From NCBI GenBank assembly GCA_021324655.1, contig JAJPIP010000044.1:1-64000 (forward strand): a stretch of DNA of 64,000 nucleotides. The letters run 5' to 3'. A program made the translations under genes and the position numbers. The DNA comes from Pseudomonadota bacterium. Lineage in GTDB: Bacteria; Chloroflexota; UBA5177. The notes under the pieces are model-generated. The model ran no database searches and was not told the origin of the DNA. It saw only the letters and a program-made list of their open reading frames with translations. Below are positions 15,859 to 29,074 of the stretch, one piece after another. Each line of letters begins with the position of its first letter. Within the stretch, counting starts at the first letter, position 1.

Positions 15859-16404
15859 ATGTCACGAACTCGTTTAGTCGTCGCGATGACCACCGCCGGC
15901 GTATTAGCCCTGGGGGTGGTCTCGCTGGGACGCCCGGCCGCAGCGGCGGTGCCCCTGGAGGCCGCAACGGCGACCGCAACCGCGACCGTCGGGACGGTAA
16001 CGGCGACCGCGACAAGCACGGCGACCGCTGTCGTCGCGACGGGAACTGCGACGGCCACACCGCCGCCGCCTCCGCCGCCACCGTCAGTAGCAACCGCGAC
16101 TGCGACCGCTGCTGCCCCGACGGCCACGGCGACCGCGGCACCGCTCGGTGCCTCCGCCGTTCTCGTGGCGCGGGCCAACGTGCGGCACGTGGGCGCATCG
16201 GCGCTGGTGCGCTGGACGATGGCCTACCAGTTGGGCGTCAAAGGGTTCCGCATCTACGCGCATCGGCGTGATCTTACCCCGCGACTGATCCACCCTCACC
16301 ACGCGCGCAGCTACTCGGCGCGGGTGCCGTGGACCAATGGCGGCCACTATTCGCTGCATATTCTGTTCAAGAATGGACATACCCAGACCAAGGCGATACG
16401 CTAG
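15859..16404 (+). CDS. Secreted protein with Ala/Thr-Pro linker and small C-terminal domain
   Basis: A 181-aa exported protein. Residues 1-30 form a signal peptide (core VAMTTAGVLALGVVSLG, then PAAAA). Residues 35-142 are a low-complexity linker of TAT-type repeats with a run of eight Pro near 68-75. The last about 80 residues are a compact domain containing ALVRWTMAYQLGVKGFRIYAH, resembling a fibronectin-III-like strand pair. Such repeats are usual in surface proteins of Chloroflexota. It is followed after only 4 bp by the caspase-like gene, so the two are co-transcribed. No function is known. Confidence 0.7.
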   Translation: MSRTRLVVAMTTAGVLALGVVSLGRPAAAAVPLEAATATATATVGTVTATATSTATAVVATGTATATPPPPPPPPSVATATATAAAPTATATAAPLGASAVLVARANVRHVGASALVRWTMAYQLGVKGFRIYAHRRDLTPRLIHPHHARSYSARVPWTNGGHYSLHILFKNGHTQTKAIR

Positions 16405-16408
16405 GCGC

Positions 16409-17233
16409 GTGATCAGCCGTTCAGCCGCCCCATTCCGGTGCTCGCCACCGGGATGGGGCGGCTCCTTTGCCTACCGTCTCGCTGCCGCCCTGTTGGTGGC
16501 CGCGCTCGGCGTCGTGACGGCCTTGCCGGCGAGATCAACCGCCGCCGGAGTTCAGCCGCAAGCCCTCGTGCTGGATCCGTTTCCGGAGCAGCACGGAGCC
16601 GGGTATACAGCACAGGATGCCGTGACTCTCCTCCAGAGCGCGGGATTCCGCGTGACGGACCTGGAAGGCACGCAGGTAACGGTGCCTGTGATGATGACCC
16701 TCTCGCACTATGCGGTCATCTACGTGTTCACCCATTCCGGCCCGCTTCCCAACAACGATGCCGCGGTGGCGACCGGAGACACCCGGCACGCGATGTACAA
16801 GAAGTACTTCCGCACGCAGAGCCTGGTTGAGATGCACATCATGTCGGACCACGGCTTCCGGTATTTCGATGCCGTCACCGGCCGGTTTATCGATCGCTAC
16901 ACGGGCAAGTTCTCGCCGCATAGCATCGTGTTCCTCAACGCCTGCACCGCCCTGGGCATGACACAGTTCTGGGTCGACTTGAAGAAGGCAGGCGTGGGGA
17001 CGCTCATCAGCTGGCGTCACCACGTGAACAACACCGATGCGGACGTGGGAGCGCACGAGGTGCTGGCGGCGCTGGCCAGGGGCGAAAGCGTGTCTCAGGC
17101 CATCCGGCAAGCGTTCGAACTGGGCGCCGGCATCAGCGTCGTCAAGGGGAAACTCGGAACTCTCGCCTACACTGGCGACGGCGGCAACACGTTCGCGCGT
17201 GCGACGAGCGGCGCGCTGACGGCGGCACGTTAG
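16409..17233 (+). CDS. Secreted caspase-fold (CHAT/gingipain-like) protein, putative Cys peptidase
   Basis: A 274-aa exported protein: residues 20-46 are a hydrophobic signal segment ending ARSTAAG. The mature part resembles the caspase-hemoglobinase fold: a strand VIYVFTHSG places H109, and a strand SIVFLNACTALG places C179, the spacing and context expected of the catalytic His-Cys pair in CHAT and C25-type enzymes. Later, VGTLISWRHHVNNTDADVGAHEVL matches the segment that closes the active site in these folds. GTG at 16409 is preferred; an ATG at 16337 would overlap the upstream gene heavily. Protease activity is inferred from the motif only. Confidence 0.6.
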   Translation: MISRSAAPFRCSPPGWGGSFAYRLAAALLVAALGVVTALPARSTAAGVQPQALVLDPFPEQHGAGYTAQDAVTLLQSAGFRVTDLEGTQVTVPVMMTLSHYAVIYVFTHSGPLPNNDAAVATGDTRHAMYKKYFRTQSLVEMHIMSDHGFRYFDAVTGRFIDRYTGKFSPHSIVFLNACTALGMTQFWVDLKKAGVGTLISWRHHVNNTDADVGAHEVLAALARGESVSQAIRQAFELGAGISVVKGKLGTLAYTGDGGNTFARATSGALTAAR

Positions 17234-17587: not shown

Positions 17588-17771
17588 GGCTGTCCTCCTC
17601 GAGGGATGATTCCCACCCCATGTCGCTGGCGCCTCATCATAGACTCCGATTCGGGATTCCGCGGAGTATCAGCGGCCAGCGGTACCGAAACAGGGTGAAG
17701 AGATGCGGCCCGTCCTTTCGTGTAACCGACGTCCGTATAGAGGAGCATCCTGAGAAGAGGAGAAGTGGTTC

Positions 17772-18311
17772 ATGATCAAGATTCGCCGCCGATCCAGCCG
17801 GTCTTCCGATGACACCCTTGACGATCTGTCTCGCGTTGGGAACGCGGTGCAACGACGTGGAAGGCGCCGCGCCATCCTCCTGGCGGTCCCGGTCACGCTG
17901 CTCGGTGTCGCCGCCATAACTGCTGAGTCACCGGTGCTGGCACGGAGCCATTCGTCCGCCCACGCCGCCTCGTTGGTCAAGATGCGCGCGGCACACATTC
18001 TGGTGAATGCGAAGGGCCGGACCCTGTACGTGTTCGCGGCCGACAGCAAGAACAAGAGCACGTGCTACGGTGGGTGCGCCGGCTTCTGGCCGCCGGTCAC
18101 CGTACCCTCCGGGACGACGCCTCCGCGCACGATGTCCGGCATTCCCGGCACGTTTGGCGTGATCATGCGCACCGATGGATCACACCAGCTGACCTATGAC
18201 GGTGCGCCGCTGTACACGTTCGCCGGCGATAAGAAGAAGGGCCAGATGAACGGCCAGGGCCTCGTCGCCTCCGGCGGTTACTGGTGGGCCGTTGTGGTCG
18301 CCGGGAAGTAA
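17772..18311 (+). CDS. Secreted-repeat (COG4315/lipoprotein_15 family) protein
   Basis: A 179-aa protein with a cytoplasmic N-terminus rich in Arg, one membrane/signal segment (about 34-52), and two copies of the secreted repeat family. Each copy has the form LVNAKGRTLYVFAADS-like strand followed by a WPP or similar motif: residues 75-115 with CYGGCAGFWPPV, and 128-175 with LTYDGAPLYTFAGD. The Cys pair in the first repeat may form a disulfide. The domain family is widespread in Actinobacteria and Chloroflexota and its function is not established. ATG at 17772 follows an AGAGGAGAAG ribosome site. Confidence 0.85.
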   Translation: MIKIRRRSSRSSDDTLDDLSRVGNAVQRRGRRRAILLAVPVTLLGVAAITAESPVLARSHSSAHAASLVKMRAAHILVNAKGRTLYVFAADSKNKSTCYGGCAGFWPPVTVPSGTTPPRTMSGIPGTFGVIMRTDGSHQLTYDGAPLYTFAGDKKKGQMNGQGLVASGGYWWAVVVAGK

Positions 18312-22053: not shown

Positions 22054-23172
22054 CTACACTCCGCGCCGCGCGTTGTCTGCGGCGGTCGCCAGACTGGATA
22101 GGAACTCCAGGAAGTCGTTCGACTGGCCGGCAAAGAGGTTGTCGTTGACGAGCGCCTGGAGCGCGCTCGTGGCAGCCATCTGCGTGTTGGTCGGCCGGAC
22201 GATGGAGACGTGCGGGAACGCCGGATTGAGGAAAATCGTCGGTTCCGGCATGATCAGGTTGCCTTCGAGCAGCGGATCAGTGGAACCGGCCAGATTCGGG
22301 AACGTTAGCCCGTTTGTCGGGTCGGTGATGGCGGGGGCATTTCCCGCCTTGTCATGCCACGTCTGGAAGTGCATGGCTTCCGTCGGGCCGATGCTGAGCA
22401 GGATGCGCAGGACCACGGGATCGGTCACTCGCTGCGCCAGGGACGGGTACAGGCTGGTTCCTCCTTGCTCGATGAAGGCGAAGTGGAAGCCGGCGGTGTT
22501 GGCGATGGCTTGCAGGTGGTTGGTCGCCGTGGTTGCCGTCGATCCCTCCAGGTCTTCTTTATGACGCGGAATCGCCGGGAACTTCCCTTTCAGCAAGCCC
22601 GGGACGGCGGGCGCAAAGGTGTCGCCGAAGTCTGGGTTCTTCGAGTCGCTGCGATACTTCTCCCACCAGCTCGTATCGATGACCAGTTCCATCAGGTTGG
22701 TCAACCGCTTGATCTGCTGGGCACCGGGGGCGGTGCTGCTGGGGAGACGTCGGAAGGGATCGAGATTGACCGGCTCCGCTCCAACCGACTTGAGATACGC
22801 GTTGATGAAAAACCAGTGGCTGAATTCATCGTCGGTGTTGTCGTGGACGTATTGAGGCATGTCGCCGTCAAGTTGTTGGAGGGCGTTTGTGTACGCGGCA
22901 TTGCCGGTTCCACCCGGGACTTCACTGTCCTGGATCCCACCTAGCTCGTTGTACTGCTGCCACAGATCGCTCTCGATGATCTCGGCAGCGGCGAGGAAGC
23001 GGAGGATGGCGATATCGCCCTCCGTGGGGGAACCGCTTGCCTCCGCTGTCAGGACCGGCAATCCGTCGACGAGCAGACCGGCGCCGACGACGCCTGCTCC
23101 CAGAGCGATGCTCTTGCCGAGAAAGGACCGCCGAGTGGTCATGCCGACCCGCTGCTGTACTGTCGGTGCCAT
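22054..23172 (-). CDS. Tat-exported ferritin-like domain protein
   Basis: A 372-aa protein with a textbook Tat signal: TRRSFLG at residues 13-19, then SIALGAGVVGAGLLVDG. The mature domain is of the ferritin-like/desiccation-related (Ferritin_2) family. Candidate metal ligands are E65 in AAAEI, E116 and H119 in DDEFSHWFF, and a later Glu-x-x-His in GPTEAMHFQTW. It may bind iron or another metal in the envelope or act as an oxidative-stress protein. ATG at 23172 is preferred because AAGGAGA lies 8 nt upstream; an earlier ATG at 23256 would displace the Tat signal. TatA is encoded directly downstream. Confidence 0.85.
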   Translation of the reverse strand: MAPTVQQRVGMTTRRSFLGKSIALGAGVVGAGLLVDGLPVLTAEASGSPTEGDIAILRFLAAAEIIESDLWQQYNELGGIQDSEVPGGTGNAAYTNALQQLDGDMPQYVHDNTDDEFSHWFFINAYLKSVGAEPVNLDPFRRLPSSTAPGAQQIKRLTNLMELVIDTSWWEKYRSDSKNPDFGDTFAPAVPGLLKGKFPAIPRHKEDLEGSTATTATNHLQAIANTAGFHFAFIEQGGTSLYPSLAQRVTDPVVLRILLSIGPTEAMHFQTWHDKAGNAPAITDPTNGLTFPNLAGSTDPLLEGNLIMPEPTIFLNPAFPHVSIVRPTNTQMAATSALQALVNDNLFAGQSNDFLEFLSSLATAADNARRGV

Positions 23173-23485
23173 GTTCAAGATCTCCTTGGTCGTGGGGGTG
23201 TCGGAAACCATCGGCTGGGCCCAGCGCGATGCAGAGAGGAGGATTCCCGCCGGCACATCCCGGCGGGCGCCCTACGTGTCATGCATACGAGTGCCGGTTA
23301 CATGAACCCCGACTGGTTCCCGTCGCCGAGGGCCGGCCGTTGTGGCCGGCGCCCTCGTGTTTCAGGGACGCCCATGGCCGCGCGCCGTGCCCTCGTCCCC
23401 GTCCGGAGGAACGGGCATGCACCCGCCGACGCCCGACCCCGGTGACCGCCTCAGACGCGGATACCGCGAGTCGGAGTACGGACGG

Positions 23486-23896
23486 CTATGACCTCACGAT
23501 GATCGTGCCGATCATGCGCGGGTGAAAGACACAGCTGTAGCGGAATGTCCCGGCCTTGTGGGCGATATAGGTCCAGCTGGAGCCCACATCGAGTGTGCCC
23601 GAGTCGAAGCTGAAGTTATCGGCCGTCACGGTATGAGCGGTGTTGCTGACGTTGGTGAAGATCACGTCCTGGCCGGGATGCACCGTGACCGAGGCGGGCA
23701 CATAGCGTCCGATTGTCTTCGCGTCGGTCTCGATCCTGACGTGGATGGCCGGTAGGCTGCTGGCGTGGGCCGGCCCGAGATTCACCATACGAAAGGGACC
23801 GTGGAAGACGATCACGCCCATGATGCCGACCACGATGATCGCCAGGATGAAACCGACGATCTCGGCAGCACTGAAGCGTACAAACCTGTTGTTCAT
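23486..23896 (-). CDS. Membrane-anchored cupredoxin
   Basis: A 136-aa type 1 copper protein. Residues 10-32 form a transmembrane anchor; the plastocyanin-like domain spans about 50-136 on the outer face. All four copper ligands are present: H88 in NTAHTV, and C122, H125 and M128 in YSCVFHPRM. It probably carries electrons between envelope redox partners, possibly to the oxidase encoded at 34.7-39.8 kb; that is inference. It lies upstream of the Tat-ferritin gene on the same strand, 313 bp away, and is divergent from a second cupredoxin gene. Confidence 0.9.
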   Translation of the reverse strand: MNNRFVRFSAAEIVGFILAIIVVGIMGVIVFHGPFRMVNLGPAHASSLPAIHVRIETDAKTIGRYVPASVTVHPGQDVIFTNVSNTAHTVTADNFSFDSGTLDVGSSWTYIAHKAGTFRYSCVFHPRMIGTIIVRS

Positions 23897-24054
23897 GTCA
23901 CCGCCTCCCTTCCCGGCCCGGGTGCTGTGTTCTTTACATCTCTCTATGATGGACGCCGCGCGGTTGCATCACGCCTCGTTTTGCCCAGCATACTCCTCGC
24001 ATCTGTAACCCGCCCCCGTACGAGGTTGTCATCACCCTCAGAGGAGGAGCAGGA

Positions 24055-24939
24055 ATGAAGGGAAGGAAGACGGCATCCCTCGCCGCGGCGGCGCTACTCG
24101 CCGGGACGGCTGCCGTTGTCGCCATATCACCGCACCGTGTTGCTCAAGCGCAGACCGCGACCGTGACCATTCGGAACTTCGCCTTTGCCCCGGCTACCTT
24201 GACCATTGCCGCGGGAACGACGGTGACGTGGATGAACGCCGATTCGGTCGCTCACACATCGACCAGTGATCCCGGCGATGCGATGTCCTGGGATTCCGGC
24301 TCAATCTCGCCAGGGAGTTCATTCAGTCTGACCTTCACCCAGGCGGGCACCTTCACTTACCACTGCTCGATTCACCCCTTCATGAAGGGCACGATCATCG
24401 TGGCGGCCGGGGTGACCTCCACCGCGACGGCGACGTCATCCGTCGTCGCCACGGCCACGGCCACTTCCGGCGGGGTGACGGCCACCGCGACGACCGTGCC
24501 GCTGAGCGCGGTACCCGGGCCCGGCGGGATGGGTATGGGACCGGCATCTCTCGCTTCCCAGCCCACCTGGCAAGGCTACTACGACGGCCACAAGGATACC
24601 TACCTCAGCACCGATGTCTCAAGCGCCGCTATGGCCGCCGAAATGCACATCCGCTACGCCCCTGGCCTGAGGAACGCCGCCGCGGCCTCCGTCGATCCGA
24701 TGTACCTCGTCCCTGGCCGGGCAGCCACCAATCAACTGGCGGTGTTTGGCTCACAGCCCGGTGAATCCGATTATTCACCGCTGTGGCGTGAGATCACCGT
24801 CACCTGGAAGTCAGGCGTGAAGCCGGTGCTGCTGACAAGCGACAACCAGATCTTTGCCCTGCAGCACAAGGGCCGCCTGACGCTCCGTCGCACGCAGGTC
24901 ATCCTGAACTGTCCGATTATTCGATACAAGAAGGGCTAG
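24055..24939 (+). CDS. Secreted cupredoxin with Ala/Thr linker and an unassigned C-terminal domain
   Basis: A 294-aa exported protein. A signal peptide (1-32) is followed by a plastocyanin-like domain (34-117) with complete copper ligands H67, C104, H107 and M110. Residues 120-150 are a TAT-type linker. The C-terminal about 130 residues begin WQGYYDGHKDTYLS and contain a conserved-looking MYLVPGRA and SDYSPLWREITVTW; I recognise no catalytic motif there. The gene ends inside the 3' end of the convergent SufR-like regulator gene (23-bp overlap). A GGAGGAGCAGG ribosome site precedes the ATG. Confidence 0.85.
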   Translation: MKGRKTASLAAAALLAGTAAVVAISPHRVAQAQTATVTIRNFAFAPATLTIAAGTTVTWMNADSVAHTSTSDPGDAMSWDSGSISPGSSFSLTFTQAGTFTYHCSIHPFMKGTIIVAAGVTSTATATSSVVATATATSGGVTATATTVPLSAVPGPGGMGMGPASLASQPTWQGYYDGHKDTYLSTDVSSAAMAAEMHIRYAPGLRNAAAASVDPMYLVPGRAATNQLAVFGSQPGESDYSPLWREITVTWKSGVKPVLLTSDNQIFALQHKGRLTLRRTQVILNCPIIRYKKG

Positions 24940-25651
24940 GAGGCTCGGCGGCGTCTGAGCCGGGTAGGTGCAGCGTCACACAGCACATGCCCGGCTCAGG
25001 CGTGAGTTCGGCGCGAAGCGCCGGGACGTCGAGAGCGCCGACCAGGCCACGGCAGAGTTCGAGGTTCATGCCGCAGACCAGGTCGCGGTGCTCGGCTGCC
25101 AGGGCGTGAAATGGGCAGTTGCGTAAGCGAATTGAGCCGGCGCGATCGCGTTGCGGCTCATACCCGTAGGCCGTGAGCACAGTCTGCAGGGAGTCGAGAA
25201 TCCTCTCTTCGTCGGCAGCGGGCTGGACACCGAGACGCGTTTCGGCGCCGAGCATCTCCCCAAACGAACGCGCGGTCTCCTCCAGCGCGGTGAGGGTCTC
25301 CGGTGACGCCGCTTGCTCGATCGCGACCGCGAGGAGGCGGGCGGCAAGTTCATAGCGGCGGGGAGGGATCGACACCTCAACCTCGGAGTTGGCCCACCGG
25401 TAGTATTTGGTTGGCCGCCCCGCGCCCGGGCCGCCCCGACCGGACGGACGGCGAAACGTCGCCTCGAGAAGGCCGCAGGCAACCAGGCGATCGAGGTGGG
25501 TGGCGGCGAGTGCGCGCGCTATGTCGAGCGCTCTGGCCGCCTCGTCGCGCGAGACCTCGCCGCGCTCCCGAACCAGGCGATACAGCGCTCGCCGCAGCGG
25601 ATCGTTGAGCTCCGCGGCCCGCCCGATTTCACCTTCTGCCGACGGCTCCAT
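24917..25651 (-). CDS. SufR/ArsR-like HTH regulator with a Cys cluster
   Basis: A 244-aa winged-helix repressor-type protein. The N-terminal HTH (15-65) reads LRRALYRLVRERGEVSRDEAARALDI, followed by a GRPTKYYR wing. The C-terminal sensor has C179 in RNCPFHALA, C193 in LVCGMN, C200, and C223-C224 in GMCCVTL. This spacing matches the Fe-S cluster sensor of SufR-type regulators, though here the target appears to be different. It is divergent from folE, and a 30-bp palindrome overlapping the folE promoter lies between them. It therefore probably represses folE and the flavoprotein gene in response to Fe-S, redox or nitric oxide state; the signal is inferred. Confidence 0.8.
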   Translation of the reverse strand: MEPSAEGEIGRAAELNDPLRRALYRLVRERGEVSRDEAARALDIARALAATHLDRLVACGLLEATFRRPSGRGGPGAGRPTKYYRWANSEVEVSIPPRRYELAARLLAVAIEQAASPETLTALEETARSFGEMLGAETRLGVQPAADEERILDSLQTVLTAYGYEPQRDRAGSIRLRNCPFHALAAEHRDLVCGMNLELCRGLVGALDVPALRAELTPEPGMCCVTLHLPGSDAAEPPSPSCIE

Positions 25652-26348: not shown

Positions 26349-27596
26349 ATGGATCACCCTGACATTTTGGTCATTGGAGGCGGCCTGGCCGCCGCTGCCA
26401 TGGCGGAAGAGTACCGGAGGGCAGGCGGAACGGAGAGCATCACGATCCTCTCCCACGATCCCGACCTTCCTGTGCACCGCCCGCCGCTTTCCAAAGGGTA
26501 TCTGCGTGGTGCGGAGGATCGAACCTCGGTGTTCGTCCACCCGCCGGCGTTTTACAACGACAACCGGATTGACGTGCGCCTTGGCCGGCGGGTGGCAGGG
26601 ATCGATCTCGGCCGCAAACAGGTCACAGTCGCGGACGGCGAGCGTCTGTCCTTTGGACGGTTGGTACTGGCGACGGGTGCCCGACCACGTCGCCTCCCGA
26701 TTCCAGGGAACGATTTGCCCGGCGTGTACTATCTTCGGAGTCTCGCCAGCGCGGACGATCTGCGCGCCGGCGCGGAGCGGGCCGAGCGGGCAGTCATCGT
26801 CGGCGCCGGATTCCTCGGTCTGGAGGTGGCCGCAACCCTGGCTCAGCGCGGTATCTCATGTACCGTCGTTGAGACTGCGCCGCGGGTCTGGCCGCAGTTG
26901 GTTCCTCCCCTGGTCTCCGACTTCATCCGGACGGCCTTTGAAGCCCGCGGCGTACGCTTCCGCTTCGGCCGCAGTGTTCGGTTCGTGGGCGGCGGTGACC
27001 GTGCCGATCATGTCGTGCTGGACGATGCCACCGTCCTCGAGACCGATCTCGTCGTGGTCGGTGTCGGGGTCCTCCTCAACACGGAGTTGGCCCAGGACGC
27101 CGGTCTCACGGTCGACCACGGCGTTGCCGTCGATTCCGTCTTCCGCACTGCCCATCCTGATGTCTATGCGATCGGCGACATCGCCCGATTCCCCGATCCG
27201 ATCGCCGGGCCGATTCACCTGGAGCACTGGGACAACGCGCTTCACCAGGGCCGGTCGCTGGGCGCCCACCTGGCCGGAGCCGGAACGCCCTTCGATCACG
27301 TGGCGTACTTCTTCAGTGATCTCTTCGACCTGTCGTTGAACATGGTCGGGTATCCCGGCGAGTGGGACGACGTGATCGTGCGAGGGGTTCCGGGAGATGG
27401 CCGGTTCACGGCGGTCTATCTTCAGCAAGGCGAGGTGCGGGCTGTTCTCATGGTGAACGATGATCACGAGTTTGACCGCTGGGTCGATTTGGTCAGGCAG
27501 AGGTTTCCCGCTGATGCCCACCGCCGCATCCTCGCCGATGCCGCGAGCGAGCTCTCCTCACTCCCGACGAGGCAGCCCGGTCCCGTCCGGGTGTAA
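26349..27596 (+). CDS. FAD-dependent ferredoxin/rubredoxin reductase-like oxidoreductase
   Basis: A 415-aa flavoprotein of the pyridine nucleotide-disulfide class that passes electrons from NAD(P)H to a small redox protein. The FAD motif is ILVIGGGLAAAAMAEEY (residues 6-22), the NAD(P) motif is VIVGAGFLGLEVAATL (about 148-163), and the second FAD site is VYAIGDIARFP near 274. There is no CxxC redox disulfide, which fits ferredoxin reductases of dioxygenase or P450 systems. It starts 1 bp after folE and is certainly co-transcribed. Its electron acceptor is not encoded nearby; the Rieske protein 800 bp downstream is a possible but unproven partner. Confidence 0.92.
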   Translation: MDHPDILVIGGGLAAAAMAEEYRRAGGTESITILSHDPDLPVHRPPLSKGYLRGAEDRTSVFVHPPAFYNDNRIDVRLGRRVAGIDLGRKQVTVADGERLSFGRLVLATGARPRRLPIPGNDLPGVYYLRSLASADDLRAGAERAERAVIVGAGFLGLEVAATLAQRGISCTVVETAPRVWPQLVPPLVSDFIRTAFEARGVRFRFGRSVRFVGGGDRADHVVLDDATVLETDLVVVGVGVLLNTELAQDAGLTVDHGVAVDSVFRTAHPDVYAIGDIARFPDPIAGPIHLEHWDNALHQGRSLGAHLAGAGTPFDHVAYFFSDLFDLSLNMVGYPGEWDDVIVRGVPGDGRFTAVYLQQGEVRAVLMVNDDHEFDRWVDLVRQRFPADAHRRILADAASELSSLPTRQPGPVRV

Positions 27597-27748
27597 CCAC
27601 GCCCGTATGTAGGAGGGTAGCGAGTATGGCGGCCAGGGATCACAGTGATTCCGGGCGGCGCCTCGTCGGAAGAACGTAGGGCATGATGTCTCGACAGCGC
27701 CTCCCGGCCCCAGAGCCCCTCGGTCGCTCCAGGTTTACCACCCCTCCG

Positions 27749-27878: not shown

Positions 27879-28427
27879 GTGAGCGAGGCCATCGGCGCGA
27901 TGGCGGCAGCGACGCAGAGGACAGCCCTGAACGCTCCTCCTGACCTTGAGGAAGTTTTCTCGCGTTTTGTCGATCCGGTCTACCGGTTCCTCTATAGTCA
28001 CGTGGGGAATCGGGAGGACGCCGAGGACCTGACTTCGGAAGTGTTCCTGAAAGCGGCACGACAACTCGACAGCGAACGGCCGGAGGCGAGTATTGCCAAG
28101 TGGCTGTTCACGGTGGCGCGCACCGTTCTCGCCGATCACTGGCGGCGATACTACCGGGGCGGTGGTCACGTCCCTCTCGACGACACCTACCTCGGTACCG
28201 CTCGACAGGATCCGGCGCCCAGGATGTCAGCCGCCCGAGCCAGTCTTCTTGATGAGCTTCTGGATTCCCTGCCGGAGCGGTACCGGATGGTCCTGGAATT
28301 GCGGTTTCTTCGTGGCTATTCGATTCAAGAGACGGCGCGCGAATTGGACACGACACCGGAGAATGCGAAGGTGATCCAGCATCGCGCGCTGGCGAAGGCG
28401 GCCCAACTGATGGAGGGACGGCTGTGA
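27879..28427 (+). CDS. ECF-type RNA polymerase sigma factor
   Basis: A 182-aa sigma-70 family protein with only regions 2 and 4. Region 2 (about 25-92) includes DPVYRFLYSHVGNREDAEDLTSEVFLKA and the WLFTVARTVLADHWRR promoter-melting helix. Region 4 (about 120-178) includes LPERYRMVLELRFLRGYSIQETA and the recognition helix TTPENAKVIQHRALAKAA. GTG at 27879 is used; a downstream ATG at residue 7 is possible. Its stop overlaps the GTG of the Rieske gene (GTGA). ECF factors are normally coupled this way to their anti-sigma factor, so the Rieske protein occupies that position. Confidence 0.93.
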   Translation: MSEAIGAMAAATQRTALNAPPDLEEVFSRFVDPVYRFLYSHVGNREDAEDLTSEVFLKAARQLDSERPEASIAKWLFTVARTVLADHWRRYYRGGGHVPLDDTYLGTARQDPAPRMSAARASLLDELLDSLPERYRMVLELRFLRGYSIQETARELDTTPENAKVIQHRALAKAAQLMEGRL

Positions 28428-29074
28428 ACGATCCGGAACGTCTGGACCGCGCCCTCGAGGAGCTCCTCCATGACCGATCGCCGCGCGGCGTCGGCGAATC
28501 GCTGGACGGCGAGGAGCAGCGTATGCTCCGTGTCGCGCAGCTCTTACGGGGCAGCCGGCCGGCAGATCCCGACGGTGAGTTTGTCGAAGCGCTGCACGCG
28601 CGCTTGTTTCCCGCGCCCGCCCGGGTCTCGCGCCGTACTGCCTTTCTGGGCGGGCTCGGCGCGCTCGCTGCGGGTGTCCTGGCGGGCGTGGGCATCGATC
28701 GTTTCGCGTCGGAGAGCAGGTCTGCGACCACATGGACGCCGCTGGTTGGCGCCAATGGGCGCTGGGTACCGGTGGCGACGGTCGCGGACCTGCCGCACGG
28801 CACCATCAAGGCGTTCCGAGCGGGTCATGTCCAGGGATTCCTCATCAACCGGCACGGTGAAATCCGAGCGCTGTCGGGCGTCTGTACGCACATGGGATGT
28901 CTGCTCGAGTTCAAGCAGTCTGACCAGGCATTCGTCTGCCCCTGCCACGGCGCTGAGTTCAGCATCTCCGGCGAGGCTTACCAGGGACCTCATCACTACA
29001 ACATCCGGCTATCCCCCCTCCCTGAGATTCGGGTGAGGCGAAGTGGTGAGTCGATCGAAGTCTGGAGCGTGTAG
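28424..29074 (+). CDS. Membrane-anchored Rieske [2Fe-2S] protein in the anti-sigma position
   Basis: A 216-aa protein with three parts. Residues 1-66 are a charged, helical cytoplasmic region including DPDGEFVEALHARL. Residues 69-91 carry SRRTAFLGG and a hydrophobic helix, a twin-arginine-like anchor. Residues 105-216 form a Rieske domain with both cluster motifs intact: CTHMGC (154-159) and CPCHG (172-176). The GTG start overlaps the sigma factor stop, so translation is coupled. Most Rieske proteins have only a few residues before the anchor. The extra cytoplasmic region and the sigma partner suggest a redox-sensing anti-sigma factor. A plain electron-transfer role remains possible; no cytochrome b gene is nearby. 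Confidence 0.88.
   Translation: MNDPERLDRALEELLHDRSPRGVGESLDGEEQRMLRVAQLLRGSRPADPDGEFVEALHARLFPAPARVSRRTAFLGGLGALAAGVLAGVGIDRFASESRSATTWTPLVGANGRWVPVATVADLPHGTIKAFRAGHVQGFLINRHGEIRALSGVCTHMGCLLEFKQSDQAFVCPCHGAEFSISGEAYQGPHHYNIRLSPLPEIRVRRSGESIEVWSV

Follow-up and report, generated by a model that had tools for sequence, protein, structure and literature searches.

A membrane-anchored Rieske protein as putative anti-sigma factor of its BldN-like ECF sigma neighbour

The analysis of 64,000 nt of genomic DNA, here called the window, indicates that the Rieske protein encoded directly downstream of an ECF sigma factor gene probably acts as the anti-sigma factor of this neighbour, a reading derived from comparative sequence analysis. 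Systems of ECF sigma and anti-sigma factors are of a known kind; a Rieske sensor domain would be the new element. Rieske proteins are so far familiar as electron carriers or oxygenase components. A Rieske sensor in an ECF system is undescribed in the open literature searched, with an earlier listing in the supplements of ECF classifications being possible. We see about even chances for the wider proposal of a widespread sigma/anti-sigma system whose sensor in the envelope is the Rieske [2Fe-2S] domain. Tat would deliver this system to the outside only after insertion of the cluster, and exported cupredoxins and related proteins would be under its control via the unusually compact promoter [TC]GTAACC-N5/6-CGTA. 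If true, such a sensor would extend the ECF systems by a new class, and redox or copper sensing in the envelope would become testable in a phylum whose regulators have been little studied, with a predicted target set and an assayable site at hand.

The sigma/Rieske gene pair and its predicted exported domain

The gene pair shows the following layout in the window:

27879..28427, + strand: gene for a BldN-like ECF sigma factor, 182 aa, GTG start (Sigma70_r2, r4_2; 6dxo_A match)
28424..28427, + strand: GTGA start/stop overlap of the sigma and Rieske genes (direct reading; offset -3)
28424..29074, + strand: gene for the Rieske protein, proposed anti-sigma factor, 216 aa (PF00355; ECF gene upstream in 61/61 homologues)
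28424..28624, + strand: N-terminal cytoplasmic helical domain, residues 1-67, proposed to bind the sigma factor (conserved A38, L41, F53; pLDDT 94 in the first helices; recurrence beside ECF genes without Rieske)
28628..28699, + strand: twin-arginine motif SRRTAFL and anchor helix, residues 69-92 (R70 in 61/61, R71 in 58/61; helix 70-86 in the model)
28760..29071, + strand: Rieske domain, residues 113-216 (Pfam match at residues 114-193; pLDDT about 97; PDB matches to Rieske chains)
28883..28900, + strand: cluster box 1, CTHMGC, residues 154-159 (direct reading; family conservation)
28937..28951, + strand: cluster box 2, CPCHG, residues 172-176 (direct reading; family conservation)

As claimed in the initial annotation, both genes share a GTGA, in which the sigma stop codon TGA occupies 28425-28427 and the Rieske start codon GTG 28424-28426, and the Rieske protein carries the two cluster motifs C154-T-H-M-G-C159 and C172-P-C-H-G176 as well as a single anchor helix, which is modelled at residues 70-86 after about 68 N-terminal residues. 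The sigma factor is matched by the Pfam families Sigma70_r2 (1.8e-13) and r4_2 (3.1e-12), its best match among all solved chains is BldN (6dxo_A, 3.8e-18), and its best NCBIfam score, that for TIGR02952, lies under the cut-off of this model. The Rieske protein reaches 59.3 bits with Pfam PF00355 at a cut-off of 20.3 and hence contains a Rieske domain. Just upstream of the sigma gene, a FAD oxidoreductase with a C-terminal domain of the Rieske-reductase type (PF14759) is encoded at 26349-27596, the end of which overlaps the motif at 27592-27607 described below. This reductase was rejected as a conserved partner, because it is absent from the recurrent neighbours of the pair. On the minus strand at 24917-25651, flanked by the genes for the cupredoxin and for GTP cyclohydrolase, an HTH regulator is encoded whose C-terminal part contains several cysteines (CPFH...CG...C...CC) and which is perhaps an Fe-S sensing SufR-like protein.

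A search for the same pair in other genomes had been suggested together with the anti-sigma reading, and the pair is indeed conserved. Homologues were sampled from 60 relatives first and then from 301 genomes of the phylum. The full-length Rieske protein with the N-terminal extension was found in 73 of these 301 genomes, distributed over many families, and an ECF gene is situated directly upstream on the same strand in 61/61 loci, i.e. 60 fetched loci of the phylum and one plasmid. The search was performed without the sigma gene; its profile, however, was built from coupled members. An ECF gene was found upstream in none of the 14 Rieske loci whose match lacks the N-terminal extension. The ECF coupling of the Rieske gene, present in all 61 fetched homologues, is thus more than chance. 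The two genes overlap with the offset -3 in 26 of the 61 loci, overlap otherwise or abut in 17 and are separated by a gap in 18; among the nearer relatives of the window the overlap is mostly ATGA or GTGA. The pair even occurs in another phylum, namely on the Mycobacteroides abscessus plasmid NC_021278.1 (MASS_RS25595/25600), where a cupredoxin gene is next to it and the public annotation of the Rieske copy reads only 'Rieske (2Fe-2S) protein'. The survey of recurrent neighbours revealed neither a conserved complex partner nor a conserved third regulator gene. The SAM synthetase gene downstream of the pair in seven loci was dismissed as partner, since the shared gene order of one family explains it. 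A single-protein scan of the genome contigs gave only one doubtful match, from Acidovorax (L039), with no N-terminal domain or ECF gene there.

Regarding the Rieske domain itself, the set of ligand and disulphide residues is complete in the window protein (C154, H156, C159, C172, C174, H175). All of these residues are invariant among the 61 homologues except H156, which is kept in 56 and replaced by Asp in the other five, an exchange that, according to the tree, arose independently about four times. Box 1 reads CTD or CSD instead of CTH or CSH in L100, L101, L120, L146 and L150. In about 20 Rieske loci that lack a sigma partner, Asp was not seen at the H156 position, a difference that is too small to be tested alone. 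The conserved twin-arginine S69-R70-R71 ahead of the hydrophobic helix had been missed in the initial annotation. Proteins with a Tat signal-anchor keep the N-terminus inside and the C-terminus outside. Because the twin-arginine motif precedes the hydrophobic helix, the Rieske protein is predicted to be such a signal-anchor protein, which would in vivo expose the Rieske domain outside and retain the N-terminus inside.

It might be possible that the protein is an anti-sigma factor responding to a signal other than redox. The Rieske domain would then sense a metal or another ligand, or report the Fe-S supply or Tat export, since only cluster-loaded protein would be exported. Such a signal would fit the conserved twin-arginine motif, which implies folding before export, the H156D exchange in five homologues, and the copper-binding or ferritin-like nature of several predicted targets. 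The invariance of the four Cys and H175 in 61/61 homologues, however, suggests that cluster and disulphide have been retained. We regard this possibility as somewhat improbable.

The upstream motif and the predicted targets

In 42 of the 61 loci, the motif [CTG]GTAAC-N4..9-[CG]GTA lies ahead of the sigma gene, compared with 0.2 in shuffles, and the spacer to CGTA measures 6-7 nt in 39 of 41 cases. The initial annotation had overlooked this promoter-like motif as well as the genes behind it. No other strongly conserved positions were found within 40-50 nt of the motif, nor a BldN-type promoter with a 16-nt spacer. The exact form [TC]GTAACC-N5/6-CGTA exists at five sites in the own genome, four of them inside the window, where they precede genes for a cupredoxin, a PF03640 protein, a Tat-exported ferritin-like protein and the sigma/Rieske pair:

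27592..27607, + strand: motif TGTAACC-N5-CGTA upstream of the sigma/Rieske operon (exact match)
24004..24020, + strand: motif TGTAACC-N6-CGTA before the cupredoxin gene (exact match, 34 nt before ATG)
24055..24939, + strand: predicted target, exported cupredoxin with DUF7482 (Cupredoxin_1 1.3e-13, DUF7482 2.5e-19)
23286..23302, - strand: motif TGTAACC-N6-CGTA before the ferritin-like gene (exact match)
22054..23256, - strand: predicted target, Tat-exported ferritin-like protein (Ferritin_2 5.1e-8; TTRRSFLG signal)
17721..17737, + strand: motif TGTAACC-N6-CGTA before the PF03640 gene (exact match, 34 nt before ATG)
17772..18311, + strand: predicted target, exported PF03640 (Lipoprotein_15) protein (PF03640 2.3e-27)
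23486..23896, - strand: second cupredoxin gene, possible target (Cupredoxin_1 4.3e-7; upstream only a two-mismatch site, 23952-23968)

Beside the PF03640 gene, an exported-looking protein without Pfam match is encoded at 16337-17233.

Among 24 sites in five genomes of the family, 16 have a gene for an exported protein within the next 130 nt, compared with 1.7% of random positions in the window; sigma genes come after three further sites. The reversed pattern used as control gave 17 sites, hence the evidence lies in the location of the motif and not in its count. When judged from a crude ORF call, sites before exported-protein or sigma genes were commoner in genomes with the pair (9/16) than in those without it (1/14, p=0.007), and the gene kinds recurring behind the site in pair-bearing genomes are PF03640-like, secreted and sigma. 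On the mycobacterial plasmid, the motif is situated between the Rieske and the cupredoxin gene. In several genomes, it is followed by a secreted protein family of unassigned function (L162, L166, L187; GSFIGPF..V.T.ASTVP.NGD.NPYGVAV.P). One genome without the pair (G005), which counts against the favoured reading, has the motif before a PF03640-like gene and encodes a BldN-like sigma factor without Rieske partner.

An explanation that we consider somewhat improbable takes [TC]GTAACC-N5/6-CGTA as the operator of a separate regulator, so that the predicted targets would not belong to this sigma factor. A spacer of 6-7 nt leaves too little room for an ordinary -35/-10 pair, and the promoter of BldN reads CGTAAC-N16-CGTTGA (PMC2375139). 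However, the first half of the motif equals the -35 element of BldN, most loci carry the motif ahead of the sigma gene itself, the sites before exported-protein or sigma genes are commoner in genomes with the pair, and a conserved third regulator gene is missing near it. The compact motif is either read in an unusual manner by this sigma factor, or it is read by another regulator.

The N-terminal domain as candidate sigma binder

The anti-sigma role proposed for the Rieske protein concerns mainly the region in front of the anchor. The initial annotation had regarded it as a bare cytoplasmic tail, a view that was abandoned because this domain recurs elsewhere and folds in the model. Residues A38, L41 and F53 are conserved in the alignment of 61 proteins, and the first N-terminal helices of the window protein are modelled with a pLDDT of 94, compared to 96-98 for the Rieske domain. 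Outside Rieske proteins, the N-terminal profile matched six proteins encoded directly downstream of an ECF gene (L084, L089, L091, L092, L093, L094), these matches being weak (E 3e-4 to 9e-3). They comprise three short membrane proteins, two proteins with large outer domains and one methyltransferase-like fusion. In the latter (L089, G035:C162), the weak N-terminal match is joined to an Ada/Ogt-like DNA methyltransferase domain. Five other non-Rieske matches to the profile have no ECF gene directly upstream. The locus L087 (G004:C26) encodes an orphan N-terminal domain of 80 aa that lacks both the anchor and the Rieske domain; an ECF gene was not found in its vicinity.

Evolutionary distances of the sigma factor correlate with those of the N-terminus with r=0.86 and with those of the Rieske domain with 0.80, values to which shared descent contributes a part. 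Moreover, the second copies harboured by one genome pair with each other across families. A read-through fusion of the sigma factor and Rieske protein of a relative was modelled from an alignment with six paired rows plus Rieske rows; its N-terminal helices reached mostly pLDDT 80-91 at a pTM of 0.59, a readout confined to pLDDT and pTM. The N-terminal profile matched neither RsbN nor any other anti-sigma structure of the PDB at E values up to 10, a point against the anti-sigma reading. The zinc motif Hx3Cx2C is absent, residues 1-66 contain no Cys, and the alignment shows no conserved Cys or His in this region; a class I zinc anti-sigma factor (ZAS) was therefore ruled out. The anti-sigma reading withstood those refuting conditions of the initial annotation that sequence analysis can address. 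Collectively, our data partly support the initial annotation in that the pair is conserved, the N-terminal domain is conserved, folded in the model and recurrent beside ECF genes, the protein is not a bc subunit, and the predicted targets are exported copper or redox proteins, while binding and inhibition of the sigma factor, the presence of the cluster and its redox state as signal are predictions.

Rieske proteins and cupredoxins are natural electron partners. Hence, the Rieske protein could be an electron-transfer protein, for example the partner of a cupredoxin, that is merely controlled by the sigma factor, with the N-terminus as nothing but a long region in front of the Tat motif. The full ligand set in 56 of 61 homologues and the cupredoxin genes nearby would agree with this. 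However, it leaves unexplained why the N-terminal region is conserved and folded in the model, occurs beside ECF genes even without a Rieske domain and co-diverges with the sigma factor, why the neighbours include no conserved complex partner, and why one cluster ligand was lost about four times, which makes such a role quite unlikely. A function as bc subunit was ruled out: the scores of the protein encoded at 28424-29074 are far under the QcrA/PetC equivalog cut-offs (44.5 vs 250, 43.3 vs 97.4), bc genes are missing nearby, as already noted in the initial annotation, with the cytochrome b matches of the genome restricted to contigs C52 and C72, and among the eight Rieske-domain matches of this genome (3.8 Mb, 114 contigs) a separate 185-aa Rieske protein is encoded beside cytochrome b on C52, so that the bc subunit is a different protein.

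Proposed mechanism and known systems

In the favoured reading as sigma/anti-sigma system, the helical domain of residues 1 to about 66 would lie in the cytoplasm and keep the BldN-like ECF sigma factor at the membrane. Since residues 69-92 represent a twin-arginine signal-anchor, folding of the Rieske domain and insertion of its [2Fe-2S] cluster would take place inside the cell, ahead of export by Tat. The signal might be a changed redox state or cluster occupancy of the outer Rieske domain (residues 113-216), perhaps brought about by electron exchange with exported cupredoxins, which are apparently targets of the system itself. Because Asp replaces one His ligand in 5/61 homologues, simple redox state may not be what is sensed, and cluster occupancy or a different signal may take its place. 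Release of the sigma factor could then occur by conformational change or proteolysis, and the free sigma factor would transcribe its own operon and the nearby cupredoxin, PF03640 lipoprotein and Tat-exported ferritin-like genes, all marked by [TC]GTAACC-N5/6-CGTA.

Among known systems, RsbN, the anti-sigma factor of BldN, defines class III (ASDIII) (PMC7406223, PMC8103513). The BldN/RsbN system of Streptomyces has in common with the pair of the window a BldN-type sigma factor, an adjacent partner gene and, as predicted for the window protein, a short helical cytoplasmic domain with one membrane anchor, and the -35 element of BldN corresponds to the first motif half [TC]GTAAC at the window sites. 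It differs in that the N-terminal domain of the Rieske protein is without detectable sequence similarity to RsbN and a Rieske domain is placed outside, and, regarding BldN, in the motif spacer of 6-7 instead of 16 nt and in the targets, which are cupredoxin and PF03640-type genes. Class I (ASDI) and zinc anti-sigma factors such as RseA, ChrR and RsrA likewise combine translational coupling to an ECF gene with a helical cytoplasmic N-terminus of the kind predicted here, whereas the window protein lacks Hx3Cx2C and its proposed sensor is a Tat-exported Rieske domain. Finally, the Rieske subunits of bc1/b6f complexes and lone Rieske proteins such as PetC3 and the C. tepidum Rieske share with it the Tat signal-anchor, both cluster boxes and the disulphide pair. 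In contrast to all of these, the window protein possesses an N-terminal extension of 68 residues that is folded in the model, and, unlike the genes of the bc1/b6f subunits, its gene neighbours an ECF sigma gene instead of cytochrome b.
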